58,295 bases of DNA from Leucothrix pacifica. Its GTDB lineage: Bacteria; Pseudomonadota; Gammaproteobacteria; Thiotrichales; Thiotrichaceae. Shown here one piece after another: positions 1 to 14,975 of the stretch (its first letter is position 1; the number at the start of each line of letters is the position of its first letter). Made by a program: the position numbers and the translations under genes. The notes below the pieces were generated by a model. It did not search any database and was not told the origin of the DNA. It saw only the letters and a list, made by a program, of their open reading frames with translations. The DNA lies in assembly GCF_003172875.1 (NCBI RefSeq), contig NZ_QGKM01000018.1:1-58295 (forward strand), in the 5' to 3' direction.

Positions 1-1281
1 ACTTATTAATCAGGTAACCATCCAGACTCTTCTTTTGGTTGTATCAGTATCTGCTTCAGCGTCTTAATACCTTATTAATAAGGTAACCATCCAGACAGAA
101 TTTAGAATGCCAAGATAGACCTTATATTTGTCTTAATACCTTATTAATCAGGTAACCATCCAGACTATACCTGCGGGGTGTAACGGAACAGTTGCGATTG
201 TCTTAATACCTTATTAATCAGGTAACCATCCAGACCAGGACTTACAGTTGGAGCAATCGCATTTTCTAATGTCTTAATACCTTATTAATCAGGTAACCAT
301 CCAGACGCTCCATTGATTTTAGAACGAAATGTTTTTGAAAGTCTTAATACCTTATTAATCAGGTAACCATCCAGACCATCTCAATGGATAAATATGAGAT
401 GCAAGGGCGTCTTAATACCTTATTAATCAGGTAACCATCCAGACTTTAAAAATTCTTTATTAGCACTAATAATAGTGTGGTCTTAATACCTTATTAATCA
501 GGTAACCATCCAGACGGGCGAGGCATGTTTATTGTAATTGGATGCGTATTGTCTTAATACCTTATTAATCAGGTAACCATCCAGACCTGAAAATTTTAAA
601 AAAAGGGTATTGAATAAGTAAGTCTTAATACCTTATTAATCAGGTAACCATCCAGACAGTTAGACCAGGTGGTCCGACACCGGGAGTTCCGTCTTAATAC
701 CTTATTAATCAGGTAACCATCCAGACCAGATCCATTTTGCATCCTCGTTGCGGCGGGGATGTCTTAATACCTTATTAATCAGGTAACCATCCAGACAAAT
801 GGGAATGGAGATTCTCATGTTTTAAAGATGGTCTTAATACCTTATTAATCAGGTAACCATCCAGACGGGTTCACTGTTGCATTATTCGTTAATGGCCTTG
901 GTCTTAATACCTTATTAATCAGGTAACCATCCAGACTTGTAAGCTTTATCATATCAACATTGTTAGCAATGTCTTAATACCTTATTAATCAGGTAACCAT
1001 CCAGACGGTGATTCCTTTCTTAAAAATTCTTTGAGTGTCGTCTTAATACCTTATTAATCAGGTAACCATCCAGACCGTCGAATTTCATTATGGCGTTCAT
1101 TTATGAAGTCTTAATACCTTATTAATCAGGTAACCATCCAGACAAAAATGCCTCTGCAAAAGAGATATACCCAAAGTCTTAATACCTTATTAATCAGGTA
1201 ACCATCCAGACATTAAGCAATTAGGGCTTGGAGTTATTTTGACTTGTCTTAATACCTTATTAATCAGGTAACCATCCAGAC
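1..1281 (-). CRISPR. CRISPR array 1 (36-bp repeats, 18 spacers, truncated by window edge)
   Basis: Eighteen complete 36-bp repeats start at 61, 130, 200, 271, 341, 409, 480, 551, 622, 691, 761, 831, 901, 971, 1040, 1108, 1176 and 1246, preceded by a partial repeat at 1-27. The 18 spacers are 32-35 nt and all different. On the plus strand repeats begin GTCTTAATAC and end CATCCAGAC. All are identical except the one at 61, which has A for C at position 20, and the edge copy, which departs at position 10. Degeneracy at the left end and a conserved leader at the right end imply leader-proximal growth on the right and leftward transcription. The variable spacer length resembles type III-associated arrays more than type I-E or I-F. 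The array may continue beyond the left edge. Confidence 0.98.
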
Positions 1282-1454
1282 CCTGCCACTTTCCAAAAAA
1301 ACGATGGTATCAGACACTTACAGCTGCCCTTTTTATATATCAAAAGAGATATACGACACTTAGTGTTTTTTTGGCTTGATACTCTCATTAAAACATCCGG
1401 TTCTATACTACTAAATGAACACTATTTCCACAACATAAAAACACAAACTAGCCC
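1282..1454 (-). promoter_or_regulatory. Leader of CRISPR array 1
   Basis: These 173 nt directly follow the last repeat and align without gaps to the 173 nt that follow array 2 (8753-8925). The core, 1316-1388, matches 8787-8859 at 72 of 73 positions, and the repeat-proximal bases also match closely. Conserved sequence adjacent to the newest repeat is the expected property of a leader read by Cas1-Cas2 and carrying the array promoter. It ends at the stop codon of the leftward 202-residue gene. Read leftward it has an A/T-rich stretch compatible with a promoter, but no start site can be assigned by eye. Confidence 0.85.
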
Positions 1455-2056
1455 GTTGATCTACCTTGCGAGGCATCATAAGGAAGCACCGAACCACTTT
1501 TTTTAGCTGCCTTTTTTTGTTGTCTTTCATAGAGCTTACTGGCACAAATTTTCTCAATGTCAGCAATAATATCAAACACCCTACTACAGTCTTCAACAAA
1601 ACACTTGCCGGGCACTTTATCATGCTGGATAGCCATTAAATCATCAATGATTACCAGCAACTGCCGATGGTATTGCTGAAAGATAGGAACAACACGTCCG
1701 TCACTGACCCGGTATAGTGATAAGTAACAAGCAATTTCCAGCGCTCTATACATCCTCAAGGTGCATGGGTCATCAACCTGAATAAGCAACTGACGTATGA
1801 CTTTTCTAATCTCTGAGATATGTACCTCACTGCCAATCCACTCAGCATAACGTAACCTCACGGTTAACAGCCAATAGCGACGTCGCAATGTGAAGCGTTT
1901 CTTAAGCTCAAGATTGCCCGTTACCTCAAGCCATTTACAGGCCACACTCACACCCTGTGAGCGAATCTGCTCCATCATAGACGCCATGCAAGTCACATAC
2001 TTGTCATTGCTAGCATCATCTGCATACCATACTTTTGTATTCATCGTATTATCCAT
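1448..2056 (-). CDS. Unknown helical protein next to CRISPR array 1 (202 aa)
   Basis: I do not recognise this family. The protein is largely helical and basic in the middle, with a Lys-rich stretch and a Gly/Ser-rich tail at the C-terminus. It shows no catalytic motif, signal peptide or clear membrane segment. The start was placed at 2056, not further upstream, because this ATG overlaps the stop of the upstream 409-residue gene (ATGGATAA) and has GGGAGC just before it. That overlap implies translational coupling and a joint function. The stop codon lies inside the leader of array 1 and the gene reads in the array's predicted direction, so read-through into the array is possible. Position between array and cas operon suggests CRISPR accessory protein, small effector subunit or regulator, all by context only. 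Confidence 0.75.
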   Translation of the reverse strand: MDNTMNTKVWYADDASNDKYVTCMASMMEQIRSQGVSVACKWLEVTGNLELKKRFTLRRRYWLLTVRLRYAEWIGSEVHISEIRKVIRQLLIQVDDPCTLRMYRALEIACYLSLYRVSDGRVVPIFQQYHRQLLVIIDDLMAIQHDKVPGKCFVEDCSRVFDIIADIEKICASKLYERQQKKAAKKSGSVLPYDASQGRSTG

Positions 2057-3278
2057 TATTGCTCCCTTTGCCGTAAGGACGAGCAAACTGTTTAAGTTGA
2101 TCAAACGTATCGAGCAGGTCAGGTTGCGTATATTCAACATGCTCTTTCAATTCTTTGAGACCCGCAGAAATATGCCGGGTAATTGATGCTTTCTTGAGCT
2201 TGCGTTCCAGCAGAATACACAGCACCCAAGACTCAACAAGCGGAAGTAATAATCTAAGCAAGCCCATACGAAGATGAACTTCATTGCTGGCCTTGACGTA
2301 TTCAGAAGTAACCTCAACCAGTCGACTAACTTTGCGAGTACTAACACCTTCCAACCGACTCCAGTCCAAACACGTTAATTGCTGATAGGTTTGGATCTCA
2401 TCATTCAACAAGCGTAGCCAATAGTTAGACAACTCCACATCTTCGACAATCTCCAGAATAGTTTCATTAAGATACTTACTTTCATCACTATTGCGGCCTT
2501 CAGCCATTGTTTTGAGATTTACAAAGGCACGAAATGCCGCTTGTTGAGCAGCAGATGTGATTTTCCCATAACGTAAGAAGCTAGCCTCCCAATGGATACG
2601 CTGAATGGCAGCTAATCCACTCGGCTCAAGTGTTGTCAAGGACGAAATAGAAAGTGGCGGATCGTCACTTTCTAACTCATGTATCAATTTCAGGCACTTC
2701 TGATGAAAAATATCTTTTTGTTTTTGGCTTTGGTTCGACGGGAAATAACGATCACGTTCCCGCTTTAACCAGATCTCATTATAAATCCTGATCAACTCAC
2801 CTTTAGTGCTAGGTAGCAATTGAATCGCAACTGATACAAGATGACCGACATAACGCGTGAACTCGACCTCTACAAACTTTGCTTGCTTGTAATAATAAGC
2901 AGCACGATCAGCCTCTTTGTGTATGCAATCAATTAGAAGGTGTGTCTTATTCATCAACATACGTTCAATGGAAGGTGTAATACTAACTCCCCAGTGGCTT
3001 TGCCCGTGAGGCACTTTCATAGACAGTAACTGCTTGCAGGCTCTAGCTATTTCACGACGTGTTGAAAAGGGTTCGTGTTCATCAATATCCTGAATTTTAA
3101 ACTGAGAAACATCAGAACAAGGAAGAAACTCAATACAAGCTCTGGCTTTTTCCAAAGCAGTTCTGAGAGTACCCGGCGCATCCAAATACGCCATTTCCCC
3201 ATGAGACATCATTAAGCCAAGACCATCACTAAACTCTGCATTGATCATGGCATGAACAATTCTCTTCATTGATAACAT
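2049..3278 (-). CDS. Unknown helical protein in CRISPR locus (409 aa)
   Basis: I do not recognise this family. The sequence is nearly all helix-forming, with no transmembrane segment, zinc-binding cluster, P-loop, HD, RRM/Cas7-like or nuclease motif that I can see. Hydrophobic runs near residues 335-355 look like buried helices. The start is the ATG at 3278, which has AGGAGG eight bases upstream; a GTG six bases earlier is too close to that site. It is the first gene of a leftward two-gene operon, overlapping the 202-residue gene by 8 bp. It is divergently arranged to the cas operon across a 228-bp A/T-rich gap, so the two units may be co-regulated. It could be a scaffold or a divergent effector subunit; nothing in the sequence decides this. 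Confidence 0.75.
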   Translation of the reverse strand: MLSMKRIVHAMINAEFSDGLGLMMSHGEMAYLDAPGTLRTALEKARACIEFLPCSDVSQFKIQDIDEHEPFSTRREIARACKQLLSMKVPHGQSHWGVSITPSIERMLMNKTHLLIDCIHKEADRAAYYYKQAKFVEVEFTRYVGHLVSVAIQLLPSTKGELIRIYNEIWLKRERDRYFPSNQSQKQKDIFHQKCLKLIHELESDDPPLSISSLTTLEPSGLAAIQRIHWEASFLRYGKITSAAQQAAFRAFVNLKTMAEGRNSDESKYLNETILEIVEDVELSNYWLRLLNDEIQTYQQLTCLDWSRLEGVSTRKVSRLVEVTSEYVKASNEVHLRMGLLRLLLPLVESWVLCILLERKLKKASITRHISAGLKELKEHVEYTQPDLLDTFDQLKQFARPYGKGSNNG

Positions 3279-3506
3279 AGTCACCGCCTCCTGTCGTTTT
3301 TATTCAACTGTCACGTCTGCACGCTGCATATTCCTTTTTTTAGTAGTGAATTAACTATAGATCTGAGATCAAAAAAACACCATCAACAAATTTTCAGAGC
3401 ATTTCTTGATATCAACAATTTCTTAAAAAACTGTCAATTCTCTAATCGAAATCATTAAAGCATCATCCTAATCATCCCCTGTTATAGCACTCAAGAGGAC
3501 GCAAAG
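3279..3506. promoter_or_regulatory. Divergent promoter region of the CRISPR accessory and cas operons
   Basis: This A/T-rich gap separates the leftward helical-protein operon from the rightward cas operon and must hold promoters for both. A perfect 10-bp palindrome, TTGATATCAA, lies at 3406-3415 and could be an operator. No convincing -35/-10 pair can be chosen by eye. Confidence 0.4.
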
Positions 3507-4604
3507 ATGATTTCGATACACTTTTTTAGACTCAGCTGGATTGTTCAGTTACTGGTAGGCATCTGCCTGTTTACAGTGTCATTTCTAATCGAAAAGCAAG
3601 TGCTGGAAGCATTCATTGCCACCCCCATGTTGGCGTTGTTATTAGCTGGCTCTTTGGAGCTTGGAAAAGCAGTCGCCATCATCTGGCACCGTTATATGAG
3701 TCACCAACCGATGACTCACTATCCCGGCTCAGTTCGACTTACCTCAAATGTCTTTCGAATGGGACTAGTACTGTTATCGATGCTTTGTTCATTACTTTTC
3801 CTATCAGACAACCTTGATCGGCCAAACTTAGAGTCAGTTCGTGAATCGGAAACGAAACGACAAGAAAATCAGCTCAACAAATATCTGTCTCGTATAGAAA
3901 AACAGAACAGTACCAAGTTAGCGACTCTGCAAAAGTCATTGCAGTCTGAATACGAGCATCTTGATGAGCGATTCAAAGACCGCATTGCGGTGATACAAAA
4001 AGAGCTCAATCTCGAGATGAACAATGTTGTCAATGGTACATTTAAAGGCCCTCGCTACGCGGAAATTGAGAGTCGCCTAAATAAGGAAAAAGCACTTCGA
4101 GATACTGAGCTAAAGAAACTACTAGAAAACAATAAGGCGGCTTATTCACTGGAGGCTAAGCGTCTGACTGCCGCACTTGAAGAGAAACAAGAGAGCGCCT
4201 ATTTGGCAGCTACTGCGTCTCATAATGCGATTCAAGTGAATGACTTTGCTGAGGATGAAAGAGCTAATGATAGCCGGATCGTATCGTTTCTCAAGGTCGT
4301 AAAATCAGTATCGGGTACGCAAGTGATGCCACTACAGTTTGTCTTTGCATTTTCATTACTGATTAGTCTGTTGATGGAAATCGGCATATTGCTGGCATTC
4401 AACACAATAACCTTATCCATCCTACCGGCGCTTAAAGCAACTCATGCCGCCGACCTTAGCAATGACATTATGCAGTCTGAATTTGATCAGGAAGTCCGAG
4501 AAGATGAACTCAGGCACAAAGAAGCGGTGAATAAAATACGCCGAACCGCTGATAACGTGATGGATAAAGCCAATGAATACATGCGAGCTAACCCTGCCCA
4601 ATAA
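3507..4604 (+). CDS. Membrane coiled-coil protein, first gene of the cas operon (365 aa)
   Basis: Three hydrophobic segments lie near the N-terminus (about 11-28, 35-58 and 84-101). A long charged coiled-coil region follows (about 105-240), then a fourth hydrophobic segment (about 276-300) and a charged tail. Acidic residues sit inside two membrane segments (LELGK near 50-54 and LMEIG near 279-283), which is unusual. The predicted product is an inner-membrane protein with a large cytoplasmic coiled-coil arm. The start has GAGG nine bases upstream. The next genes are a soluble coiled-coil protein 18 bp downstream, then two cas2 genes, cas1 and RT on the same strand. I do not recognise the family. 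By context it may anchor the adaptation machinery at the membrane or act as a membrane effector; both are inference. Confidence 0.8.
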   Translation: MISIHFFRLSWIVQLLVGICLFTVSFLIEKQVLEAFIATPMLALLLAGSLELGKAVAIIWHRYMSHQPMTHYPGSVRLTSNVFRMGLVLLSMLCSLLFLSDNLDRPNLESVRESETKRQENQLNKYLSRIEKQNSTKLATLQKSLQSEYEHLDERFKDRIAVIQKELNLEMNNVVNGTFKGPRYAEIESRLNKEKALRDTELKKLLENNKAAYSLEAKRLTAALEEKQESAYLAATASHNAIQVNDFAEDERANDSRIVSFLKVVKSVSGTQVMPLQFVFAFSLLISLLMEIGILLAFNTITLSILPALKATHAADLSNDIMQSEFDQEVREDELRHKEAVNKIRRTADNVMDKANEYMRANPAQ

Positions 4605-4622
4605 CCCAATGAGGACACTACA

Positions 4623-5333
4623 ATGAAACAGAAAACAACAAACCGTCATATCGGTACAAACCCTAGCCGCCGAACTTACAACACACCAGATGATGTTGTC
4701 CGCTCTGGTGATAGCAACGATCAGCAAGTGATCAATGCAATTCAGCGGCACAACCAAGCGCCCTTCCCCATGCTTAATCGATCAGAAAGGAAGCTAGTGC
4801 AGACCCACATGGTGCAAGAGCTGTCACAAGGTTTTGAGCACAGGCGACAAGCACTAAACATGGTTCTTGAAACAAAGCTTCACTCCATTCAAGAGGCTTG
4901 CAACCATGTTTTAGTCACAGGAAAAACGCATCTGCGACAACAGCGTCTTGAGTATTTTGGTGAAGTGTATAGCCAAGTTGAACAACGTATGAATGGCCTG
5001 GCTGATGATTTCCTGAAAGATATGGATGATCGCTTTGAGCGTCTAAAGGACTATAAAAGTGACGCTATAAAACATCGCGAGAAGCAACGCCTTGAAAAGT
5101 CAGTAGATGATTTTCTAGATACGATTGATCAGCTAATGGATGAGTTTCGCAGCATTATTAGCGAGCACATTAGTCACGGCCAAGATAAACCAGTCCAATC
5201 GACCAGAGAAGCCCCTGAGCCTATTTCTGAAACGGTCGAATTGACCGATGAGGAATATGAAAATGAATTCGGAATCAATGATGTGGTTGACCAATTCATG
5301 GAAGCTCAACTGAGAGAAAAGTGGGCTAAATAG
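4623..5333 (+). CDS. Coiled-coil protein in the cas operon (236 aa)
   Basis: A soluble, charged protein with a basic, polar N-terminus (about 1-45), a helical and likely coiled-coil middle (about 60-180) and an acidic C-terminus (about 195-225). No enzymatic motif or membrane segment is visible. GAGG precedes the start, and the gene begins 18 bp after the membrane coiled-coil gene and ends 8 bp before the first cas2, so it is firmly within the operon. The matching coiled-coil character of its upstream neighbour suggests the two proteins bind each other. I do not recognise the family, so a role as adaptor between the membrane protein and Cas1-Cas2-RT is inference only. Confidence 0.78.
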   Translation: MKQKTTNRHIGTNPSRRTYNTPDDVVRSGDSNDQQVINAIQRHNQAPFPMLNRSERKLVQTHMVQELSQGFEHRRQALNMVLETKLHSIQEACNHVLVTGKTHLRQQRLEYFGEVYSQVEQRMNGLADDFLKDMDDRFERLKDYKSDAIKHREKQRLEKSVDDFLDTIDQLMDEFRSIISEHISHGQDKPVQSTREAPEPISETVELTDEEYENEFGINDVVDQFMEAQLREKWAK

Positions 5334-5341
5334 GTGGTGCA

Positions 5342-5626
5342 ATGAAACGTAAAGCAGCAATTATTGCTTACGACATTGCCAGTAATAAGCGGAGACGTCA
5401 GGTGTTCCGTTGCCTCAAAGCATGGAGTCTGGATAGTCAGTACTCCTTGTTTGAGTGCAAGCTTACCCGGCGTGAAGCTGAAGAACTATTTATTCAGCTG
5501 TCGGATTTAATCAATGAAGATGAAGATACTCTGCTACTGGCTTGGCTCGATAAGCGCCACACAGTAAAGCTACTAACAAAAAATACAGGGGCTGGCTTTC
5601 AGGCTCCTGCTTGGTATTTAGGTTAG
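5342..5626 (+). CDS. cas2: CRISPR-associated protein Cas2 (first copy, 94 aa)
   Basis: Cas2 forms the dimeric core of the Cas1-Cas2 integrase that inserts spacers at the leader end of an array. This protein opens with the family hallmark, a beta strand ending in IIAYDI with Asp at residue 11, followed by a basic helix, and its length is normal for Cas2. AGGTGG lies just upstream of the ATG. A second, clearly different cas2 follows 67 bp later. The two share the strand-1 motif but little else that I can align by eye, so this is not a recent tandem duplication. It could be the structural partner of Cas1, a second-array-specific subunit, or a toxin-like Cas2 homologue. The family call is firm and the division of labour unknown. 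Confidence 0.88.
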   Translation: MKRKAAIIAYDIASNKRRRQVFRCLKAWSLDSQYSLFECKLTRREAEELFIQLSDLINEDEDTLLLAWLDKRHTVKLLTKNTGAGFQAPAWYLG

Positions 5627-5693
5627 TGAACAAGACTAACATTATTTTCAACGGGGTGCTTAATAGCACCCTGTTTAAGCTTAAAGGTGAGCT

Positions 5694-6032
5694 ATGAAAT
5701 CTTGGTACATTATCGCCTATGACATTCGCGAACCGAAGCGGCTACGTCGGCTTCATTATTTTCTGAAAAAGAAATCCATCGCCTTACAAAACTCTGTTTT
5801 CTTGGTAAAGGCCGATGCCCAGTATCTCAAGTACTTGGAAAGCAGTCTGGAAAAACTGATTAATATCAGAGATGACGATGTTCGTATTTATCCGGTGCTC
5901 CACCCCGATACATTGTGGGCTGCGGGAAAGCAAGCCTCAGCTTTTCAACACTTGTATGCGGGTAAGAAAAAGAGATCACGTAAACGAAAAACACCAACGT
6001 GGGTAAACAACCTGTTTGGGTGGTTGTCATGA
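5694..6032 (+). CDS. cas2: CRISPR-associated protein Cas2 (second copy, 112 aa)
   Basis: The N-terminus has the Cas2 strand-1 motif (YIIAYDI, Asp10), a basic first helix and the typical ferredoxin-like length. A basic C-terminal extension of about 20 residues, with a Lys/Arg cluster near residues 91-99, could add DNA or RNA contacts. The stop codon overlaps the cas1 start as ATGA, so this copy is translationally coupled to cas1 and is the more likely partner in the integrase. A 67-bp gap separates it from the first cas2; that gap holds a purine-rich ribosome binding site just before the ATG and no other gene. Confidence 0.92.
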   Translation: MKSWYIIAYDIREPKRLRRLHYFLKKKSIALQNSVFLVKADAQYLKYLESSLEKLINIRDDDVRIYPVLHPDTLWAAGKQASAFQHLYAGKKKRSRKRKTPTWVNNLFGWLS

Positions 6033-7045
6033 TGCTGATTCTTGATAAACGCGATACCGTGCTTCGCTATGAAACAGGTAGTCTACGCATCGAGCGCAAA
6101 GGTGAGAGACTGCAGCGCGTGCCTATAAAGCAGTTGGAGCAAGTCATCATATTTGGTAATGCAATGGTGGAAAGCAATGTCTGGCGTTACTTAGCAGATG
6201 AGTCTGTTTCTATGGTTATAATGTCAGCACGTGGAGCGCCTAAAGCGGCTTTTCTACATGGCAGTCTTGCAACACAATTACCATTCCGACGTATGCAACA
6301 TAGTGATGCATCTAGTGATCGGTTATCACTGATTCATGCCCGATATTTTGTGAGATTAAAATTTCAAAGCTATGCTTTGTCAGTACAAACGTTGACTAAC
6401 CACTACGACGTTGAACAGGAAGCCCTGAACGGTTTTTTAAATCAACAATCAGATACCTTAAAACGACTCGATGAAGCCAACTCGGTTTCGAGTCTTATGG
6501 GGTTGGAAGGTCAACTGGCACATGCTTGGTTTGTATTGCTTGCGCATTCATTGCCGTATCGCTGGAAATTTGCAGGACGGAACCGTCGCCCTCCTCGTGA
6601 CCCGCTGAATTCACTATTGTCTTTATGCTATACCTTAGTCAGCTCGGAGGTGAATCAATCGTTGCTTGCTTCCGGTTTTGATCCATCTCTGGGTTTTCTT
6701 CATCAGGACACGCCGGGTAGGGAGTCTTTGGTTTTAGACTTTGTCGAAATCTTTCGCTCTGCAGTAGACAGTTTTGCGCTCCAGTGGTTAGCCGAAGCCC
6801 CGCTTGACGATAGCAGCTTTTACTACCGACAAAAGGAAGGTTGCCGCCTCAGCAAAGCAAGTCGCCCGCTATTTTTTAAAGCATGGTCTCAGTACCGCTA
6901 CGAGTGGCCGCGCCCTATTCTCAATGATGATGCGACTGTCGAATCTATCATCGATTGGCCACGGGCTGAAATACGAGAAGTCATTAATGGTCAGATTATG
7001 CAGTGGCGTGAACTACTCAAAGAAAACCATGCGGTGGATGTATGA
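6029..7045 (+). CDS. cas1: CRISPR-associated endonuclease/integrase Cas1 (338 aa)
   Basis: Cas1 is the metal-dependent integrase that joins new spacers to the leader-proximal repeat. The expected catalytic set is visible: Glu160 in GLEGQ, His225 in LGFLH, and Asp237 with Glu240 in VLDFVEIFR. The N-terminal beta-rich domain (about 1-85) has the usual form and length is typical. The reading frame is open further upstream, but the ATG at 6029 is chosen because it forms an ATGA overlap with the preceding cas2. The 3' end likewise overlaps the reverse transcriptase start as ATGA. Cas1 and RT are therefore separate but tightly coupled proteins, unlike the fused RT-Cas1 of many type III systems. No Cas6 domain is fused to it. 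Confidence 0.96.
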   Translation: MMLILDKRDTVLRYETGSLRIERKGERLQRVPIKQLEQVIIFGNAMVESNVWRYLADESVSMVIMSARGAPKAAFLHGSLATQLPFRRMQHSDASSDRLSLIHARYFVRLKFQSYALSVQTLTNHYDVEQEALNGFLNQQSDTLKRLDEANSVSSLMGLEGQLAHAWFVLLAHSLPYRWKFAGRNRRPPRDPLNSLLSLCYTLVSSEVNQSLLASGFDPSLGFLHQDTPGRESLVLDFVEIFRSAVDSFALQWLAEAPLDDSSFYYRQKEGCRLSKASRPLFFKAWSQYRYEWPRPILNDDATVESIIDWPRAEIREVINGQIMQWRELLKENHAVDV

Positions 7046-7881
7046 AACAAAGTATTCTCCAACAAGCGATGTCACCAGAGGTCTTGAATCTAAGCTGGAG
7101 ACGACTCAAGATAGAACATACTCCTTGGTCACCAACAGTCAGCCGTGATCTGCTACAGAGTCATTTACTGAAATATATTTTGGAGTCACGTGAGCAGGTA
7201 TTAGATGGTCGCTACTCTCCTCAATCTCTACGGCAATTTCCGCTTAAAAAACCCGACGGCAGGCAGCGAATTATATCTGCCCAATATTTGCAAGATAAAC
7301 TCATACAACGCGCTGTGCTGACGGTGCTTGAGCCGCGCGCAGAAGCAATGTTTCATGACGACAGCTACGCGTACCGCCCGAAACGTAGTGTTGATATGGC
7401 AATGGCTAAGGTGAGAGAGCGAATCAGAATTGGTCAGGACTGGCTGGTCGATGCTGATATCACCAGCTTCTTCGACAACATCCCTCACAGAATTTTAATC
7501 AAAATCTTGAAGCAGTTTGTATCCGATAAACAAGCAATGCTGCTAATTGAAAAGTGGCTCAAAGCAGGGGCACATCAGAGCAGTTTGCTTGGCACTCGCA
7601 AAGGTATCTCGCAAGGAGCGATTTTATCACCACTGTTTTGTAATCTTTATCTCCACCAATTCGACATCGCTTTGACACGAGCCAATATTCCGTTTGTAAG
7701 GTTTGCTGACGACTTTTTGTTGTTCACGAATAGTGAAAGTAATGCCTTACGTGCTAAGGACTTTGCTGAGCAACGTTTGAACCAGCTAGGACTTGAGCTA
7801 CACCCGCTTAAAACTTGTGTTGCACGTAGTAGCCCCAAGTTGGTTTTTTTGGGAAAAAAGTTACCTAAACCAAGTGAGTAG
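7042..7881 (+). CDS. CRISPR-associated reverse transcriptase, free-standing (279 aa)
   Basis: A group II intron-like RT. Visible motifs in order are the RT1-2 region with KPDGRQR (70-76), SYAYRP (108-113), the catalytic Asp139 in DADITSFFDNI (137-147), the RT4/5 motif with SQGAILSPL (190-198), the active-site FADD (221-224) and an RT7 motif FLGKKL (269-274). The protein ends just after RT7, so it is a bare finger-palm unit with no thumb/maturase X domain, DNA-binding or endonuclease domain. It overlaps cas1 by ATGA, so it should act with Cas1-Cas2, presumably copying RNA-derived spacers as shown for RT-Cas1 systems. Array 2 begins about 13 bp after its stop, and array transcription would run antisense into this gene. 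Confidence 0.93.
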   Translation: MKQSILQQAMSPEVLNLSWRRLKIEHTPWSPTVSRDLLQSHLLKYILESREQVLDGRYSPQSLRQFPLKKPDGRQRIISAQYLQDKLIQRAVLTVLEPRAEAMFHDDSYAYRPKRSVDMAMAKVRERIRIGQDWLVDADITSFFDNIPHRILIKILKQFVSDKQAMLLIEKWLKAGAHQSSLLGTRKGISQGAILSPLFCNLYLHQFDIALTRANIPFVRFADDFLLFTNSESNALRAKDFAEQRLNQLGLELHPLKTCVARSSPKLVFLGKKLPKPSE

Positions 7882-7883
7882 CT

Positions 7884-7930
7884 GTCTGGATTGGATAGGT
7901 CAACCTTATTCATCAGGTAACGATCCAGAC
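7884..7930. repeat. Inverted octamer around the degenerate terminal repeat
   Basis: GTCTGGAT at 7884-7891, just after the RT stop codon, is the exact reverse complement of the repeat terminus ATCCAGAC at 7923-7930. The arms are 31 nt apart and enclose the degenerate terminal repeat. This may be a remnant of an inverted repeat copy or an array-end hairpin; chance cannot be excluded. Confidence 0.45.
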
Positions 7931-8752
7931 AATTTACTCTATACGAAGGACCTATTCAGGTCGTCCTAATACCTTATTCATCAGGTAACGATCCAGACCT
8001 TGGTTTCCTCCTCTCTAGTGCAATGCTAGAGGTCCTAATACCTTATTCATCAGGTAACGATCCAGACCTTGCTGAAGGGAAAACCCAATACTGGGGAATC
8101 GTCCTAATACCTTATTCATCAGGTAACGATCCAGACATGATCAAGTATGAGGATCACAACTTAATTCGTCCTAATACCTTATTCATCAGGTAACGATCCA
8201 GACGCAGTATTGATGAAGTAGCTGAATATGCCGTCTTGTCCTAATACCTTATTCATCAGGTAACGATCCAGACCATTTTATGCGGCGAAATCACCGGGTT
8301 TTATTTGTCCTAATACCTTATTCATCAGGTAACGATCCAGACTATTTTGTGGAGCCAAATGGTGAACCACGATTGTCCTAATACCTTATTCATCAGGTAA
8401 CGATCCAGACTTTAGCAGCTTTTACATTTTTAACTTTTCCTCTGTCCTAATACCTTATTCATCAGGTAACGATCCAGACGCTGTTTCTGCTGAAGCACCA
8501 CATTATGTTGGGTCCTAATACCTTATTCATCAGGTAACGATCCAGACTGTGATGGAGGTAGCACTATTCAAGCCAAGGCAGTCCTAATACCTTATTCATC
8601 AGGTAACGATCCAGACGTTCCTGAGTCAGAGTATCAAACGGCGCCAACGTCCTAATACCTTATTCATCAGGTAACGATCCAGACACCGTGAATTTTTAAA
8701 GAAATTCATGGAAACGGTCCTAATACCTTATTCATCAGGTAACGATCCAGAC
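7895..8752 (-). CRISPR. CRISPR array 2 (36-bp repeats, 12 spacers)
   Basis: Twelve identical 36-bp repeats start at 7963, 8032, 8101, 8168, 8238, 8307, 8375, 8444, 8512, 8581, 8649 and 8717. A thirteenth, degenerate copy at 7895-7930 keeps positions 9-36 but has lost the first eight. The 12 spacers are 31-34 nt. The repeat differs from that of array 1 at positions 4 (C for T), 17 (C for A) and 28 (G for C). Degeneracy on the left and the shared leader on the right give the same orientation as array 1. The degenerate end is followed directly by the RT gene. Confidence 0.98.
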
Positions 8753-8925
8753 CCTGTCACTTCCCAAAAACTCATCTCAGTCAAAGACTTACAGCTGCCT
8801 TTTTTATATATCAAAAGAGATATACGACACTTAGTGTTTTTTTGGCTTGATACTCTCATCCAAACTTCCTATTCCATGCTACTAAATGAACACAATTTAT
8901 ACAACAGAAAACCACAAGCCAGCCC
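8753..8925 (-). promoter_or_regulatory. Leader of CRISPR array 2
   Basis: The 173 nt following the last repeat align gaplessly with the leader of array 1, with a near-identical core at 8787-8859. The repeat-proximal bases (CCTGTCACTT here, CCTGCCACTT at array 1) are also conserved. Near identity of the leaders despite distinct repeats indicates that one Cas1-Cas2 integrase serves both arrays. Confidence 0.85.
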
Positions 8926-9024
8926 CATTCAATGACCTATCGCATTATCTCGGTCACTTCTCTTGCTTGTATTATTGTAGATCTTCTTGTTAACTTCATA
9001 AAGGGCAAATGAGGTAACGATGAT

Positions 9025-9270
9025 ATGTTAAAAGCAAAGGTAAAAATATCAGGTAGATTAAAGAAATTTACTCGCACACAAACCGCTGAAGAAGGACTGT
9101 ATGAAACTGCTAGCGAGTATCTCTGTGATCTAATTCAAATACATATAGCGCGCCAAAACAATCACAGTTGGACTGCTCTTAAGAAAGAGCTATTGCCTGG
9201 AATGAATGCGCCACGAAGTGAGTTTGTAGAGGTTACCACTGCCGACGTTATCGCAAGAAATAAACGCTAG
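9025..9270 (+). CDS. ParD-like ribbon-helix-helix antitoxin, apparently orphan (81 aa)
   Basis: A short protein resembling ParD-type antitoxins: an N-terminal strand, then helices with a SEYLCDLI segment (about 31-38) typical of the ribbon-helix-helix fold, and a C-terminal tail that would normally wrap a ParE toxin. GAGG lies 10 bases before the ATG at 9025; another ATG five bases earlier closes at once. No ParE or other toxin gene follows: after the stop comes a 22-bp hairpin and then a convergent gene. It may be a remnant of a toxin-antitoxin pair or a stand-alone regulator. Its position at the outer edge of array 2's leader is notable but may be accidental. Confidence 0.65.
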   Translation: MLKAKVKISGRLKKFTRTQTAEEGLYETASEYLCDLIQIHIARQNNHSWTALKKELLPGMNAPRSEFVEVTTADVIARNKR

Positions 9271-9309
9271 CATGTCAAAATTTTTTAATTGACAAACCAA
9301 AACCAGAGA

Positions 9310-9374
9310 GGCCACGCTTTAATCTCTCAAATCGATTCAAACGAAGTTTGTGTTTGAGAGATTAAAACGTGGCC
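9310..9374. terminator. 22-bp hairpin between convergent genes
   Basis: The arms 9310-9331 and 9353-9374 pair over 22 positions with a single mismatch, and the 21-nt loop itself contains a CAAAC/GTTTG dyad. It lies between the ParD-like gene and the convergent tpa gene, so a bidirectional terminator is the simplest reading. No flanking T-run is present, and the unusual length would also fit a REP-like or attachment element. Confidence 0.55.
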
Positions 9375-9397
9375 GCTCGATCTACAAGGTAACGCGC

Positions 9398-10780
9398 TTA
9401 CAGCACGACCTTAGCCAAGGCATTATCAACTGCCTCAACAATCTGATCCGCATCATCCTTCGTACAAATCAGAGCCGGACTAAAGCAAAGCGTATTATTA
9501 AACGTCTCAAAGCTACGATTAGTGCGCCCAATAATCACACCTTGCTGCATGCAGTCAGCAACCACACCTGCCGTCACCGACTCATCAACCGGTTCTTTGC
9601 TCTTGCGATCTTTAACCAGTTCCAGTCCCATAAACAGACCCACACCACGCACATCACCAATCACAGGATACTTATCCTGAAGCTCAGCAAAGCGACCCAT
9701 AAAGTACTCGCCCATGTTAGTTACGTTCTGCAGAAGATTCTCTTCTTCTATAATGCGTAGATTCTCAAGCGCTGCCGCCGGGCCACCCGCACAGCCACCA
9801 AAGGTACTGATATCGCGGAAGTAATTCATTTTTTCAGCCGGTGCATGCAGGAATTCATTAAACAATGCTTCGGTCGTTGCAGTGACCGAGATCGCGGCAT
9901 AACCACTGGCCACGCCTTTAGCCATGGTGACGATATCTGGCTTCACACCGTAGTGTTGATAACCGAACCATTTACCGGTACGCCCCATGCCACAGACCAC
10001 TTCATCAATATGCAGGAGTACACCATACTTAGCGCAGATTTCCTGAACGGTTTCAAAGTAGCCTTCCGGTGGTGGAATCACACCGCCACCTGCGGTAATT
10101 GGTTCAAGTATGATCGAACCGACGGTGTCGGGGTCTTCACGCAGAATCACCTTCTCGATTTCACAGGCCGCTTGTACCCCAAAGTCAGGATCATCACCAT
10201 TCGGTGAGCGGTAAGCCATACAGTGTGGCACTTCCACAAACCCCGGGGTGAATGGTCCGTATTGATCTTTACGTTGTAGCTGACCAGTCGAACTAAGCGC
10301 AGTAATGGTCGTGCCGTGGTAATCACGATCACGGTATAAGATCTTGTGCTTTTTACCGTCGTTTTTTAACGCGGCTAATTGGCGTACCAGCTTGTAGCCT
10401 TTTTCATTGGCTTCAGAACCTGAATTTGAATAATAAACGCGAGACAAGCCCGGCATTTTTTCAATCAGGCGCTCGGCAAACAGCCCACCCGGTACGTTAC
10501 CCGCAGAGTTGGCGAAGTAATTCATTTTTATTAGCTGGTCATACACGGCTTTAGCAATACTCTCGCGGCCGTAGCCAACATTAACGGTCCACACCGCACC
10601 GGACACGGCATCTAAGTGTTCACGTCCCGACGCATCCCAGACACGCATGCCTTTGCCTTCAACGACCATCAACGGTGCTTTGCCGTCTAAGGGTTGGTGT
10701 TGTGTCAGGTGGTGCCACATGTGAGCGCCGTCGGCCTCAATCGCTTGTTGGGTCAGTATATCTGGTCTGTTATTTGTCAT
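9398..10780 (-). CDS. tpa: Taurine--pyruvate aminotransferase (460 aa)
   Basis: A class III PLP-dependent aminotransferase. It closely resembles Tpa, which transfers the amino group of taurine to pyruvate to give sulfoacetaldehyde and alanine. Landmarks are the family-typical N-terminal region (HMWHHLTQHQP at 20-30, EGKGMRVWD at 41-49), the cofactor-binding NSGSEANE (119-126), Asp259 in HIDEV and the Schiff-base Lys288 in MAKGVASGY. The start at 10780 is preferred to an upstream in-frame start because GAGG lies seven bases before it and family members begin near here. The gene stands alone, facing away from dsrS; no sulfoacetaldehyde acetyltransferase or taurine transporter is seen nearby. 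Related omega-aminotransferases acting on beta-alanine or other amines cannot be fully excluded. Confidence 0.8.
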   Translation of the reverse strand: MTNNRPDILTQQAIEADGAHMWHHLTQHQPLDGKAPLMVVEGKGMRVWDASGREHLDAVSGAVWTVNVGYGRESIAKAVYDQLIKMNYFANSAGNVPGGLFAERLIEKMPGLSRVYYSNSGSEANEKGYKLVRQLAALKNDGKKHKILYRDRDYHGTTITALSSTGQLQRKDQYGPFTPGFVEVPHCMAYRSPNGDDPDFGVQAACEIEKVILREDPDTVGSIILEPITAGGGVIPPPEGYFETVQEICAKYGVLLHIDEVVCGMGRTGKWFGYQHYGVKPDIVTMAKGVASGYAAISVTATTEALFNEFLHAPAEKMNYFRDISTFGGCAGGPAAALENLRIIEEENLLQNVTNMGEYFMGRFAELQDKYPVIGDVRGVGLFMGLELVKDRKSKEPVDESVTAGVVADCMQQGVIIGRTNRSFETFNNTLCFSPALICTKDDADQIVEAVDNALAKVVL

Positions 10781-11028
10781 GTCAAATCCTCGGCGTACTA
10801 CACGCGAAAAACGATGGTAACGGCCCAATCTGTGTGGCTCACAGCAGGCGCGCACTTGGTGAATATACTCGATAGCATAACCGTGCTATTTACTCCGCCC
10901 ATAGAACCAGCGTTATCCCAAGTCTTAGGCCAAGCGTTTTGCCTGCACTATCTATTGAGGGTTACCGCAAATCGGCGACACTTCGTATATCATCATTTCT
11001 AATAAAGAAGTACTCAACGAGAGCCCGA

Positions 11029-12135
11029 ATGGAGCTGTGTAACGAAGACAATTTGCGACTCAATGTGCTGCTGGCGCAACCACTGCGGGCGATTCGTATC
11101 AATGAAAACACCTTGACGGTGGTGGGCCTGACTGAGCGCGGTGAGGCAACGGTTCAGCTCAACCCAACCGTGCGTGATGAGCAGTATTTGCGTTGGGTGC
11201 GTGAGTTACTGGCTCTCAAAGCGACTGGCTCTCCGGCAGGTTATCCGGTGTTTATGAAACGTTGGACGCGTATTGGCCAGATCAAAAACAATCTCAAACA
11301 GATGCTGTTACTGGGTGAGCCTGAAGCAATTGTTGCGGTGTCTCACGCCCCAGATATGACGCTGGATATTGCGGAGTGCGCGTGGTGGGCGAATCCTTCG
11401 ACAGAGGTGGCAATGGGTTTGCTGCAGTATGCTGAAGTCTATGAAAGCGACTTGGGCAAGGCACTGGCCGCACACCTGATGGAGTTTTTGCCGTTTGAAG
11501 AATCACCAGTGAATATTGTGTACATGGTGCGCGCGTGTTTGCAGGGTGAGTTGCTGGACGAAACACAGCGCTTGAGTTTGTGGCGACGGGCTAAGCGGCG
11601 TCATCCTTTTTATGTCGGATTTACCTTTGCAGAGGCGCGGCAGATTCCACTTGATGCAACTGACTCACCAACCTATGAGACGCTAACTGCCCTGCTGGCA
11701 ACGCAGCTGGCAGAGGGCAATGCGTTTGCCAAGGTGTTTGCTTATCAACTCTCAGCAGCGGGACAAGCCTGGTTACAGCTGCTTGCCTTAGCCCTCAAAA
11801 AGCCGGTTGATCCGGATGTGGTGGTGGCTTTGTTTCATGCGGTTGATCAGCGCTTTGACTGCCCTGCCAAACCTGACCGGGGTGTGCGAGATATTAACGA
11901 CATCGACATTGACGCGGTCAGTGCTGAGTACCCTGAGCTTGCTGAACTGCGTGACACAATCAATGAGTCACAACAAACATTGCTTGAGGCCGGACTCCTG
12001 TTGGCGATGGTCGGCGAGCATACGCTCAACCCCATTTTTGGTGGTAATGACTCCGTGGGTACCGTGATGCGTAAACGCTTAGCCCCGCTCACTGAGCCTT
12101 TATTAGAAAAAATTGATATACTAACAAACCACTGA
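11029..12135 (+). CDS. dsrS: DsrS-like sulfur oxidation protein (368 aa)
   Basis: The sequence resembles DsrS, the last gene product of the dsr cluster of purple sulfur bacteria. DsrS is a soluble cytoplasmic protein whose exact role is unsettled; a regulatory role has been proposed. Support is the characteristic N-terminus (ELCNEDNLRLNVLL at about 2-15, RAIRI at about 19-23) and a length close to the family's. No catalytic motif or membrane segment is visible. The start is the ATG at 11029, where the family similarity begins; the open frame extends further upstream without support. It leads an operon with two small unknown genes and cysG. The recognition rests on memory of the family. Confidence 0.72.
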   Translation: MELCNEDNLRLNVLLAQPLRAIRINENTLTVVGLTERGEATVQLNPTVRDEQYLRWVRELLALKATGSPAGYPVFMKRWTRIGQIKNNLKQMLLLGEPEAIVAVSHAPDMTLDIAECAWWANPSTEVAMGLLQYAEVYESDLGKALAAHLMEFLPFEESPVNIVYMVRACLQGELLDETQRLSLWRRAKRRHPFYVGFTFAEARQIPLDATDSPTYETLTALLATQLAEGNAFAKVFAYQLSAAGQAWLQLLALALKKPVDPDVVVALFHAVDQRFDCPAKPDRGVRDINDIDIDAVSAEYPELAELRDTINESQQTLLEAGLLLAMVGEHTLNPIFGGNDSVGTVMRKRLAPLTEPLLEKIDILTNH

Positions 12136-12156
12136 CACACACACACGAGGACGATC

Positions 12157-12393
12157 ATGGCTTACTATGTTTTTAAAATTACTCAACCGACTCCGATCAT
12201 GAAGAACCTTGAATATCAGGAGTCGTTTGAAGAGTACAAACAAGCCCGTACTTTTACCCGCAGTCTACGCGCTCAAATCCCACCGGGTAGCGGCATTGAT
12301 GTGCGGATGGTACACGCTGCCAATCAACTGCAAGCCGAAGAAATGCTCATGGAAAAACGGGAAAAGCCAGTGCTTATGGAATGGGAAAAGTAG
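12157..12393 (+). CDS. Small conserved-looking protein in the dsrS-cysG operon (78 aa)
   Basis: Unrecognised. A small soluble, charged protein beginning MAYYVFKI, with GAGG seven bases before its start. The gene begins 21 bp after the dsrS stop and 12 bp before the next gene. It has no cysteine, so an iron-sulfur role is unlikely. Its tail is helical and Glu/Lys-rich. The tight spacing and strong ribosome binding site make it a real gene. Its placement argues for a role in Dsr-dependent sulfur oxidation, which is inference. Confidence 0.75.
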   Translation: MAYYVFKITQPTPIMKNLEYQESFEEYKQARTFTRSLRAQIPPGSGIDVRMVHAANQLQAEEMLMEKREKPVLMEWEK

Positions 12394-12405
12394 GCCCGAC
12401 TGAAC

Positions 12406-12858
12406 ATGGATGAAGATCAGTTCCGGGAGACTTATCACGCGCTTAATCCACAGCGTTGTGCCTTTGAAAAGGCCATTATTAATCAACGCTGCGATTGCTC
12501 AGAAAAACGCAAGTTTTTACTGGCGACACGTGAGGGTGTGGCATGCGAAGCGGCTGACGGCCCTGCTTTGTGTAAAACCGTTCTGGATAACCTTCGTCAA
12601 TCCGCTCGGTTTGCTTTGAAATCGGTATTAGTTGATGGCCCGTTGCCACATAATAAAGAGCTGCAGGTTCAGGCTGGCGGATTGATTGGTTTACATCGAC
12701 TAGTCTCCGCGACGGCTGATGATTCTGTTAATATTCACGCTACGTTGCAAGGTGCTTTGCAGCGATATAAACAGCCGGATGAGTTTCCTTATCAGGACTT
12801 AATCCAGAGCATTTCAAGTTATAGAGCGCGTAAGCGCCGTCAGGATAAACACACATGA
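12406..12858 (+). CDS. Cys-containing unknown protein in the dsrS-cysG operon (150 aa)
   Basis: Unrecognised. The N-terminal third carries a cysteine group (Cys18, Cys28, Cys30), with further cysteines at about 46 and 56; the C-terminal half is helical and ends in a basic tail. The pattern could bind a metal or an iron-sulfur cluster, or take part in thiol chemistry. No signal peptide or membrane segment is present. The stop codon overlaps the cysG start as ATGA, so it is translationally coupled to siroheme synthesis. Together with dsrS upstream this suggests a sulfur-metabolism role, by context only. The ribosome binding site is weak. Confidence 0.75.
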   Translation: MDEDQFRETYHALNPQRCAFEKAIINQRCDCSEKRKFLLATREGVACEAADGPALCKTVLDNLRQSARFALKSVLVDGPLPHNKELQVQAGGLIGLHRLVSATADDSVNIHATLQGALQRYKQPDEFPYQDLIQSISSYRARKRRQDKHT

Positions 12859-14279
12859 AGCATTTCCCGATTTTTGTCAGTATTCGAAACAAGCCGTGCG
12901 TAGTGATTGGTGGTGGGCCAGTGGCTAGTCGCAAGATCGGTAATTTGTTAGAAGCAGGTGCACAAATCACAGTTGTCTCTCCGCAGATTACTGAAGAAAT
13001 AAAACAATACCTCGCCGCAGAGTCCATTACTTACTTACCGCGTGAATACACTGAAAGCGATCTGGAGGGAGCATTTTTGGTGTTTGCCGCCACGGATAAT
13101 CGTGAGGTCAACTCCGCTGTCGCAGCACTCGCCACATCACGCGATCAATTAGTGAATGTGGCTGATGAGCCCGATGAGTGTACGTTTGTGTTGCCGTCGG
13201 TATTAGATCGCTCGCCGGTGCTGGTCGCGGTATCTACCGGTGGTGCCTCTCCGGTGCTTGCCAGACAATTACGCATTCAATTGGAAACCTTGATTCCCTC
13301 TGCCTGCGGACGTTTGGCGGGTATTACGGAGGAGTATCGTGAGAAGGTTAAACGCTTTTTCCCGAAGCAGGTGCAGCGTAAGAAGTTTTGGGAAAACGCC
13401 CTGCACGGCCCCGTCTCTGAGCTGGTTTATGCAGGACAAGAAGGCAGCGCCCGTACCCGTTTAGATGAGATGCTGGAGCAAGGTCTGGATAAAGATCCCA
13501 TGGGTGAGGTGTATCTGGTCGGTGCCGGCCCCGGTGACCCGGACTTATTGACGTTTAAAGCGGTGCGTTTAATGCAGCGTGCCGATGTCATGGTGTATGA
13601 CCGTCTGGTATCCCAACCTATTTTAGACATGGCGAATCCAGACGCTGAGCGTTTGTATGTGGGTAAGCAAAAAGATGATCACGCCGTGCCGCAACACAAG
13701 ATTAATGACCTACTGGTGGATCTAGCCAAGCAAGGTAAACGCGTACTGCGTCTAAAAGGTGGTGACCCGTTTATCTTTGGTCGTGGTGGCGAAGAAATTG
13801 AAACACTCACCGACAATGGCGTACCGTTCCAGGTAGTGCCTGCAGTCACCGCTGCCTCCGGCTGCTCCTCTTACGCAGGTATTCCACTAACGCATCGTGA
13901 CTACGCGCAATCCGTCACCTTTGCGACAGGTCATCTAAAGGACGGCACGGTCAATCTGGACTGGCCACATCTGACCCAACTCAACCAGACCTTAGTATTT
14001 TATATGGGACTGTCTGGTATCGCAGAAATTAGTAAACAATTACAGGCACATGGGATGTCACCGGATATGCCAGCGGCTTTGATTGAAAAAGGCACGACTC
14101 GCCACCAACGCGTACACATCGCAACACTGGCCACGCTCCCTGAGAAAGTGGTTGAAAGCGGTGTTCGGGCGCCGACATTAACAATCATTGGTGAAGTCGT
14201 GAAGCTGCATGACAAACTGCACTGGTATGAGCCGGAGCGCCATGTCAAAGACAGCGACTTCAGCCTTCATCAGAGTTAG
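12855..14279 (+). CDS. cysG: Siroheme synthase CysG, trifunctional (474 aa)
   Basis: CysG makes siroheme from uroporphyrinogen III. The N-terminal precorrin-2 dehydrogenase/ferrochelatase part (about 1-210) has the NAD-binding GGGPVASRK motif (19-27), the [12 protein letters not shown] segment and a [11 protein letters not shown] motif. The C-terminal SAM-dependent uroporphyrinogen methyltransferase (about 215-465) shows [48 protein letters not shown] and the later GHL segment. Length is that of the fused enterobacterial enzyme. It overlaps the preceding gene by ATGA. Linkage with dsrS suggests the product serves sulfite reductase of the Dsr type, though assimilatory sulfite or nitrite reductase could also use it. 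Confidence 0.95.
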
Positions 14280-14289
14280 GTGGTTGGCA

Positions 14290-14362
14290 GGCTGACGGTA
14301 TTATGATGGCTACGCCGACTCCCTGCGCTCGTAAGGACTTCGCAATCATAATCCCGACAGCC
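14290..14362. repeat. Palindromic element copy 1
   Basis: Imperfect arms at 14290-14307 and 14345-14362 (about 16 of 18 pairs) enclose a loop carrying a 21-bp core at 14316-14336 that begins CGACTCCCT and ends CGTAAGG. The same core occurs inverted in a second hairpin 180 bp away, whose arms are unrelated. Shared loop with unrelated arms suggests a short repeat unit lodged in hairpins. Confidence 0.7.
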
Positions 14363-14480
14363 TGCTGGAAGCTTTGTGGGGCGCGGCGGGGTAGTTTTGC
14401 TTAGCTCATAGCACCAATCTCAGCAACAGTACTCTTGATGTAAACCTGTTCTGAGCTTCGTGCGACGCCAAATTACACTA

Positions 14481-14559
14481 GCGCTGGTTCGGTACTTTGT
14501 TGACTGAGACCTTACGAGCGAAGGGAGTCGGGGAAGGCAACAAAGTACCGAACCAGCGC
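14481..14559. repeat. Palindromic element copy 2 (22-bp perfect arms)
   Basis: Perfect 22-bp inverted repeats at 14481-14502 and 14538-14559 flank a 35-nt loop. The loop holds, at 14510-14530, the reverse complement of the 21-bp core of copy 1 with one mismatch. The intervening 118 bp hold nothing I recognise. The pair fills most of the 318-bp gap between cysG and the S24-like gene and may also end cysG transcription. Confidence 0.75.
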
Positions 14560-14597
14560 GACCAAATCCAAAGGAACACGAATCTCAGGAGGGAAAC

Positions 14598-14975
14598 ATG
14601 CAAGAAACCAAAATATCAATACAGGAGGCATTCAAGCCGGATATTGCTCAGGAGATGAGTCAGGGCAGTAGTTGTTCCGAATCCGAGCCATTTGCACTGC
14701 AAGCCATTGATGACAGCATGGAACCGGAGTTTGATGCAGGCTGCATTATCATTATCGACCCGACCGGTGTCGCGCGTGACGGTGCGTATGTGTTTGCCAA
14801 AGACAATCAGGGTGAATACATTTTTCGTCAGCTACGCATTATCGATGAGCGTTATTATCTCGCGCCATTGAATGACCTGTATGAAACCTTTGAGATATCC
14901 GGCGTTAAACAGATCGAAGGGGTAATCACTCAACGTGCTGGCAAGAAACGCAGCTATCACAAGAGCTACTACTAA
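14598..14975 (+). CDS. S24/LexA-like peptidase-fold protein with Lys-to-Arg change (125 aa)
   Basis: This is the C-terminal peptidase fold of the LexA/S24 family without any N-terminal DNA-binding domain. The nucleophile motif DDSMEPE is present (Ser40), followed by the typical stretch up to VARDGAYVFA. The residue 37 positions later, where LexA has its catalytic Lys in VKRL, is Arg77 (FRQL). Autocleavage is therefore doubtful. A clear AGGAGG-like site precedes the ATG. The stop overlaps the MoxR start as TAATG, so the protein is coupled to an AAA ATPase and a VWA protein. It may act as a peptide-binding sensor or adaptor for that pair; this is inference. Confidence 0.75.
   Translation: MQETKISIQEAFKPDIAQEMSQGSSCSESEPFALQAIDDSMEPEFDAGCIIIIDPTGVARDGAYVFAKDNQGEYIFRQLRIIDERYYLAPLNDLYETFEISGVKQIEGVITQRAGKKRSYHKSYY

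Follow-up and report, generated by a model that had tools for sequence, protein, structure and literature searches.

The window, i.e., the whole stretch of 58,295 nucleotides of Leucothrix pacifica DNA that was analysed (contig NZ_QGKM01000018.1), contains an operon with the gene order ccA-ccB-cas2a-cas2b-cas1-RT. It is followed by a CRISPR array, and the gene of the reverse transcriptase (RT) is the last gene. The reading frames of cas2b and cas1 overlap by 4 nt, as do those of cas1 and the RT, which have an ATGA in common. The features of the locus are listed below, with the residues of the RT discussed in the text. Collected loci, genomes and contigs carry numbers beginning with L, G and C, respectively.

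1..1281, minus strand: second CRISPR array, which runs off the contig start; its repeat is unlike that of the RT-adjacent array at 3 of 36 positions
1282..1454, minus strand: putative leader of the second array, from its likeness to 8753-8925
3507..4604, plus strand: ccA, 365 aa, with four predicted hydrophobic segments; found in 8 of the 15 loci checked
4623..5333, plus strand: ccB, a soluble protein of 236 aa; likewise found in 8 of the 15 loci checked
5342..5626, plus strand: cas2a, the first Cas2 (Pfam CRISPR_Cas2, 5.2e-14)
5694..6032, plus strand: cas2b, the second Cas2, with a C-terminal extension (Pfam CRISPR_Cas2, 9.6e-15)
6029..7045, plus strand: cas1, 338 aa from the conserved ATG (Pfam Cas_Cas1, 4.5e-69 on the longer frame from 5999)
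7042..7881, plus strand: stand-alone thumbless RT, 279 aa (N-terminal extension, fingers, palm), from the ORF, Pfam, PADLOC, the alignment and the model
7456..7458, plus strand: presumed catalytic Asp of RT3, D139 (VDADI), invariant in the 22-row alignment A2
7708..7713, plus strand: catalytic Asp pair of RT5, D223 and D224 (FADD, residues 221-224), invariant in A2
7810..7812, plus strand: K257, placed by sequence alignment with the RT-helix lysine K574 of the Thiomicrospira Cas6-RT-Cas1
7846..7854, plus strand: FLG of RT7 (residues 269-271, from the alignment), with 8 residues after it
7895..8752, minus strand: RT-adjacent CRISPR array of 13 repeats, its degenerate (trailer-like) repeat proximal to the RT
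8753..8925, minus strand: putative leader of the RT-adjacent array, at the end far from the RT, with 85% identity over 174 nt to 1282-1454

Between the leader of the second array and ccA there are also two overlapping ORFs (1448-2140 and, on the minus strand, 2049-3284), neither of which has a family match above a curated cut-off.

The ORF of the RT begins with the ATG at 7042 and ends with a stop whose last nucleotide is 7881. Its product matches the Pfam family RVT_1 over residues 69-272 (E 1.4e-35), and no second Pfam family was found in it at E<=1. The PADLOC model PDLC01136, which has 263 positions and is described just as 'RT (reverse transcriptase)', covers the protein almost whole (residues 6-276 on positions 2-260; E 7.9e-89). 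D139 is taken to be the catalytic Asp of RT3, by analogy with D73 of 8BGJ. The residues D139, Q191, G192, D223, D224 and K257, together with FLG, are invariant in the 17-row family alignment. The motifs are thus present and the catalytic aspartates intact, as in a CART. A sequence-only reading of this DNA had described a minimal RT of 279 residues that carries motifs 1-7, is without thumb or maturase domain and overlaps cas1; this description stands, and its coordinates were exact.

An AlphaFold model of the RT, built from 56 aligned sequences, has a mean pLDDT of 90.9 and a pTM of 0.88. Its residues 4-279 align with residues 2-279 (of 417) of the 6AR1 chain, with a Z of 30.6 and an rmsd of 2.3 over 274 residues, while the match to 8BGJ has a Z of 20.6. 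Residues 1-54 form the N-terminal extension; the model shows this part as mostly helical, with lower confidence at 21-40. Structure prediction had been proposed as a check on the minimal architecture and bears it out: in the model nothing is missing from the N-terminal extension, the fingers or the palm, and the predicted chain stops at the palm/thumb boundary, where a thumb would start. The domain names used for 6AR1 follow in part PMC8102632. The structure 7KFT was not among the best 50 matches of either fold search and was matched by sequence instead.

Such an end could also be that of a truncated gene, in which a frameshift or the growing array had removed the thumb and left the RT as a remnant. 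The degenerate repeat that starts 14 nt past the RT stop leaves no room for more, and a broken RT copy is known in another genome (L034). The relatives of the RT argue against it. Among the 17 family RTs with a visible stop, i.e., the window RT and 16 others with 45-75% identity to it, FLG is followed by 6-13 residues in 16 (8 in the window RT) and by 28 in one, that of L026, so that 15 of the 16 others lie in the short range. The tree has 18 family rows, the stop of L068 not being visible since that sequence is cut by the contig end; L006, a near copy of L005 that was left out of the tree, has 6 residues after FLG. The corresponding number in group II RTs is 118-150, in eight of eight, two of which are near copies. 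A tail the size of a thumb occurs in none of the 17 family rows with a stop, the window included. The truncation by the array that the sequence-only reading had allowed for, to be recognized by close relatives carrying a longer RT, was therefore not borne out, none of the 16 relatives having a thumb-sized tail.

The relation of the RT to the array argues in the same direction. Where an array was detected, the gap between the RT stop and the first repeat varies from 14 nt in the window to 879 nt in L027; L030 has a repeat-like match 933 nt past the stop, before a masked stretch, and no downstream array was found in L005 (within the 1.8 kb to the contig end) or in L036. The putative leader of the window array is at its far end, whereas L026 and L007 have short leader-like matches (35-36 nt) right at the RT end or immediately past it. 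Judged from these sequences, the orientation of the array relative to the RT appears to differ between loci, and the RT ends alike at any distance and in either orientation of the array, and also where none was found. Moreover, the RT is under strong purifying selection in the relatives, with a dN/dS of about 0.07 (0.066-0.082 in six pairs, which share sequences); the pair of the window RT and its nearest relative has a saturated dS. Finally, a thumb lost downstream by a frameshift or by array growth, which had been put forward as something to look for, left no trace: tblastn with two group II thumbs found none in positions 1-12000 of the window (best E 0.11, at 4891-4977). As a positive control, this search did recover the thumb behind two viral group II-like RTs with frames that stop at RT7. 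These two (L080 and L089) are the only ones of 80 viral RTs whose frame seemingly ends at RT7, and the thumb follows in the same frame behind the stop. A third viral RT (L112) ends 41 residues past RT7, with a partial thumb match in another frame. We regard truncation as highly improbable, and the RT gene of the window is complete, its minimal form being natural and not the result of damage.

Two loci of the family show damage or unusual ends of their own. In L026 (8370-10138; G038) cas2a, cas2b and the beginning of cas1 are apparently deleted in part, and the 28-residue tail of its RT, the longest in the family, is basic. In L034 (9005-9559; G061) the broken RT copy is a second one that lies between arrays, in a genome that also has an intact RT.

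With a threshold of E 1e-40, 15 of 144 genomes hold a relative of the RT, its own genome counted and one of them (G043) holding a group II RT; at 1e-60, 8 of the 369 genomes of the class-wide sample do, its own again counted. The named relatives are MAGs that bear the titles Gammaproteobacteria and Deltaproteobacteria. In the 29-row RT tree the family is on one branch, with support of 100/100. The 51-row quick tree, which used 8 CRISPR references and 17 of the 51 viral rows and whose support is unstarred, sets the family and eight other CRISPR RTs opposite 25 group II-like RTs with an SH-aLRT of 93. A grouping of the window RT family with other CRISPR RTs is thus probable on the aligned sequences. 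Among the viral contigs scanned with the RT no relative was found, and the viral profile scans gave, among the best 80 of 163 in one and the 8 loci of the other, RTs at <=37% identity only. RTs that are separate from Cas1 are described for clade 13 of Toro and branch 7 of Silas.

An RT of a group II intron that arrived recently beside cas1 would share much with what was observed, as the nearest solved folds among the matches listed and the best NCBIfam match (a group II RT/maturase model) are all group II RTs, and a true group II RT is encoded by another member of the taxonomic family (G043, L037). The fingers/palm fold of group II intron RTs such as GsI-IIC (6AR1) is common to the window RT, the N-terminal part included, but the thumb, the maturase domain and the intron RNA of these enzymes were not found for it. 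The NCBIfam score of 233 bits is below the cut-off of 300, the RT has no GIIM domain, and around its ORF, in positions 1-16000 of the window, Rfam gave no match for an intron RNA at the gathering score. The maturase family GIIM has one match only in the genome, on contig C68, beside another RT match. In view of the fully supported separate branch and the conserved synteny as well, a recent arrival of this kind is scarcely conceivable.

The absence of a thumb has been described for RT-Cas1 proteins (PMC8102632 and PMC11014452), and the window RT therefore poses no special puzzle in this respect. In the Thiomicrospira Cas6-RT-Cas1 with Cas2 (7KFT/7KFU), the RT consists, like that of the window, of fingers and palm with FADD and without thumb/X, and works with Cas1-Cas2 (PMC8102632). 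Its RT-helix lysine K574 (chain position 577, from which an offset of 3 was deduced) points into the Cas1 active site, and its mutation abolishes RT activity; the counterpart in the window RT is K257. The Thiomicrospira RT is fused to Cas6 and, via about 60 residues, to Cas1, and is accompanied by one Cas2, whereas the window has a separate RT and two Cas2. In the RT-Cas1 of Marinomonas mediterranea, Cas1 is fused directly where the canonical thumb would be; according to PMC11014452, the protein tails RNA and makes cDNA for spacer acquisition, and a limited processivity is suggested for it. The window RT is unfused. Being a separate ORF downstream of cas1, it is not an RT-Cas1 or Cas6-RT-Cas1 fusion, and since the order cas1-RT is opposite to that of the RT-Cas1 fusions, a simple split of one is unlikely.

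Stand-alone CARTs are a class listed in PMC10415136, with Maridesulfovibrio zosterae as an example; the window RT may be likened to this class. CaCART of Caloramator australicus (8BGJ) is without the N-terminal extension and fused to a Prim-Pol, while the window RT has the extension and is unfused. The cyanobacteria Nostoc (WP_104902139.1) and Gloeothece (WP_012599795.1) have, like the window, a separate RT beside cas1 and cas2 that is too short for a thumb. These two differ from the window in the order RT-cas1-cas2, in the 45 and 37 residues after RT7 and in the one Cas2 annotated, and they look like split fusions. In sum, a thumbless stand-alone RT is of a known kind and is what is expected for a CRISPR RT.

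The module around the RT is more distinctive. Of the 15 loci counted, 13 have both Cas2 genes; L006 and L025, which are without the upstream genes, and L066 and L068 are not among the 15. The two exceptions are L029, whose cas2a is frameshifted in its assembly, and the damaged locus L026. A dual-Cas2 operon with an RT after cas1 was not found described in open-access text, and the figures or supplements of the clade surveys may show it. The plasmid pALVIN01 of Allochromatium vinosum (L163 6310-8029) resembles the window in carrying a pair of cas2 genes together with a related Cas1 (37%) and, behind them, an array; over the 15 kb of sequence read, no RT was matched. In Allochromatium tepidum there is a cas2b-like match only (E 5e-15), and cas2a was unmatched. 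The window thus holds an ordinary RT domain within a distinct dual-Cas2 adaptation module. Upstream of cas2-cas2-cas1 on pALVIN01 are csm6 and csx16.

The two genes at the head of the operon were named in the sequence-only reading as possible partners in place of a thumb, and the 'coiled coil' of ccB is a term of that reading, not a computed feature. No Pfam family was found for ccA above the cut-off; three of its hydrophobic segments are near the N-terminus and one is near residue 280, and they are probably membrane-spanning. ccB had no match in plasmids. If ccA and ccB replaced the thumb, they would hold template and primer at the membrane, and they do head the operon in 8 of the 15 loci, where profile searches found both (the window, L004, L005, L007, L023, L026, L032 and the divergent L035). 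The same profiles found neither in the other seven (L027-L031, L033 and L036; in L030 the sequence more than about 4 kb upstream of cas2a is masked). The RTs of these seven are just as thumbless, and the probably membrane-spanning segments of ccA also speak against such a role. The coiled-coil proteins are accordingly very unlikely to substitute for the thumb. In two loci without ccA and ccB another ORF is found beside the cas2 genes (L031 11664-12437 and L029 12349-13113); at its start is CxxxCxxC, a motif like that of radical-SAM enzymes.

The gene that accompanies the RT most closely is cas1. In the class sample of 369 genomes, the eight best Cas1 places (E<1e-90, the window included), four of which went into the Cas1 search model, all adjoin an RT, and eight of the nine RT places have a family Cas1. 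The ninth, in G136, has no family Cas1 at E<=1e-60 in the genome and none in 12 kb, while its RT (L025 609-1442) is intact and near two arrays and genes that look type III by eye; the pairing of RT and Cas1 is hence not absolute. With this exception, the RTs of the family are encoded beside cas1/cas2 and arrays, as CARTs are. A transfer of the thumb to the N-terminus of Cas1 was also considered and rejected: the Cas1 proteins of relatives align from the ATG at 6029, without an extension.

These observations bear on whether the RT acts with the integrase or free of it. In the latter case it would be a short-range polymerase or primase that does not dock, and its products would reach Cas1-Cas2 by diffusion. 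Isolated CART-CAPP RT domains, which comprise palm and fingers, are polymerase and primase in vitro without partners (PMC10415136, where the word 'thumb' is absent from the text), those of CaCART-CAPP and GlCART-CAPP (aa 1-271) being active alone. The need for another protein in place of the thumb, which the sequence-only reading had supposed, is accordingly not strict. A free RT would be consistent also with the lack of a Cas1 linker and of any tail beyond 8 residues, and with G136, which keeps its RT without a family Cas1. On the other hand, the overlap with cas1 and the eight best Cas1 places, all adjoining an RT, suggest a stoichiometric partner, and K257, which matches the Cas1-contacting lysine of the fusion, is kept. 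The latter point is weak, since K257 is invariant also in the five group II rows of the 22-row A2, so that this residue alone is no proof of docking. Overall, we consider an RT free of the integrase unlikely, and by analogy with the fusions Cas1-Cas2 is the likely docking partner.

The RT architecture and its preservation in a family that forms one branch, the selection in relatives and the synteny are results of computation. The explanation that we favour, and hold to be quite probable, is that of a complete stand-alone CRISPR RT which supplies prespacer DNA to Cas1-Cas2 for a type III effector. By analogy with the characterized systems the RT probably makes prespacer DNA. We infer that it would copy short pieces of RNA (and DNA), or prime DNA on them, and that the product would be passed to the Cas1-Cas2 integrase as new spacer material, some spacers then being of RNA origin. 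Since this RT lacks the linker that joins RT and Cas1 in the fusions, any docking on Cas1-Cas2 would be non-covalent and in trans. Short templates together with a low processivity would make a thumb dispensable.

A more specific proposal is that of an asymmetric split RT-integrase, in which Cas2a and Cas2b would form a heterodimer with two unlike faces and the free RT would therefore dock on one side only, as a plug-in, with a directional hand-over of the prespacer. We put this forward tentatively, as a possibility that is more doubtful than not. If it were true, the RNA-templated prespacer would be handed directionally to Cas1, and dual-Cas2 integrases would gain or lose an RT, the module of A. 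vinosum being one without it. On the favoured explanation, a very small and naturally separate RT would allow its dependence on Cas1-Cas2 to be examined just by mixing the proteins, an experiment that fusions preclude, and the paired Cas2 genes are an unusual handle on how an integrase might receive RNA-derived spacers.

The new spacers of the favoured explanation would serve the type III effector whose III-D-like genes are on contig C143 of the same genome. The array on this contig has exactly the repeat of the second window array, which differs from that of the RT-adjacent array at 3 of 36 positions, and the leaders are 77% alike over 92 nt. Beside the array there are profile matches to Cas7_IIId, Cas5_IIId, Csx19, Cas10 and Cas6. 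From this likeness of repeat and leader across contigs, the adaptation genes of the window and the III-D-like effector may act jointly from separate loci; for RT modules, adaptation genes and effectors at different loci were suggested to act together in PMC5513706. The III-D-like operon is headed by a 2TM / Cap15-like effector (L053 18926-19633). When the spacers of the two window arrays and those of C143 were compared with the loci collected for the analysis, with self-array rows dropped, one spacer had a 16-nt match, which is present in two viral contigs. Contig C63 of the same genome holds a second RAMP locus (L055), whose arrays have a different repeat.
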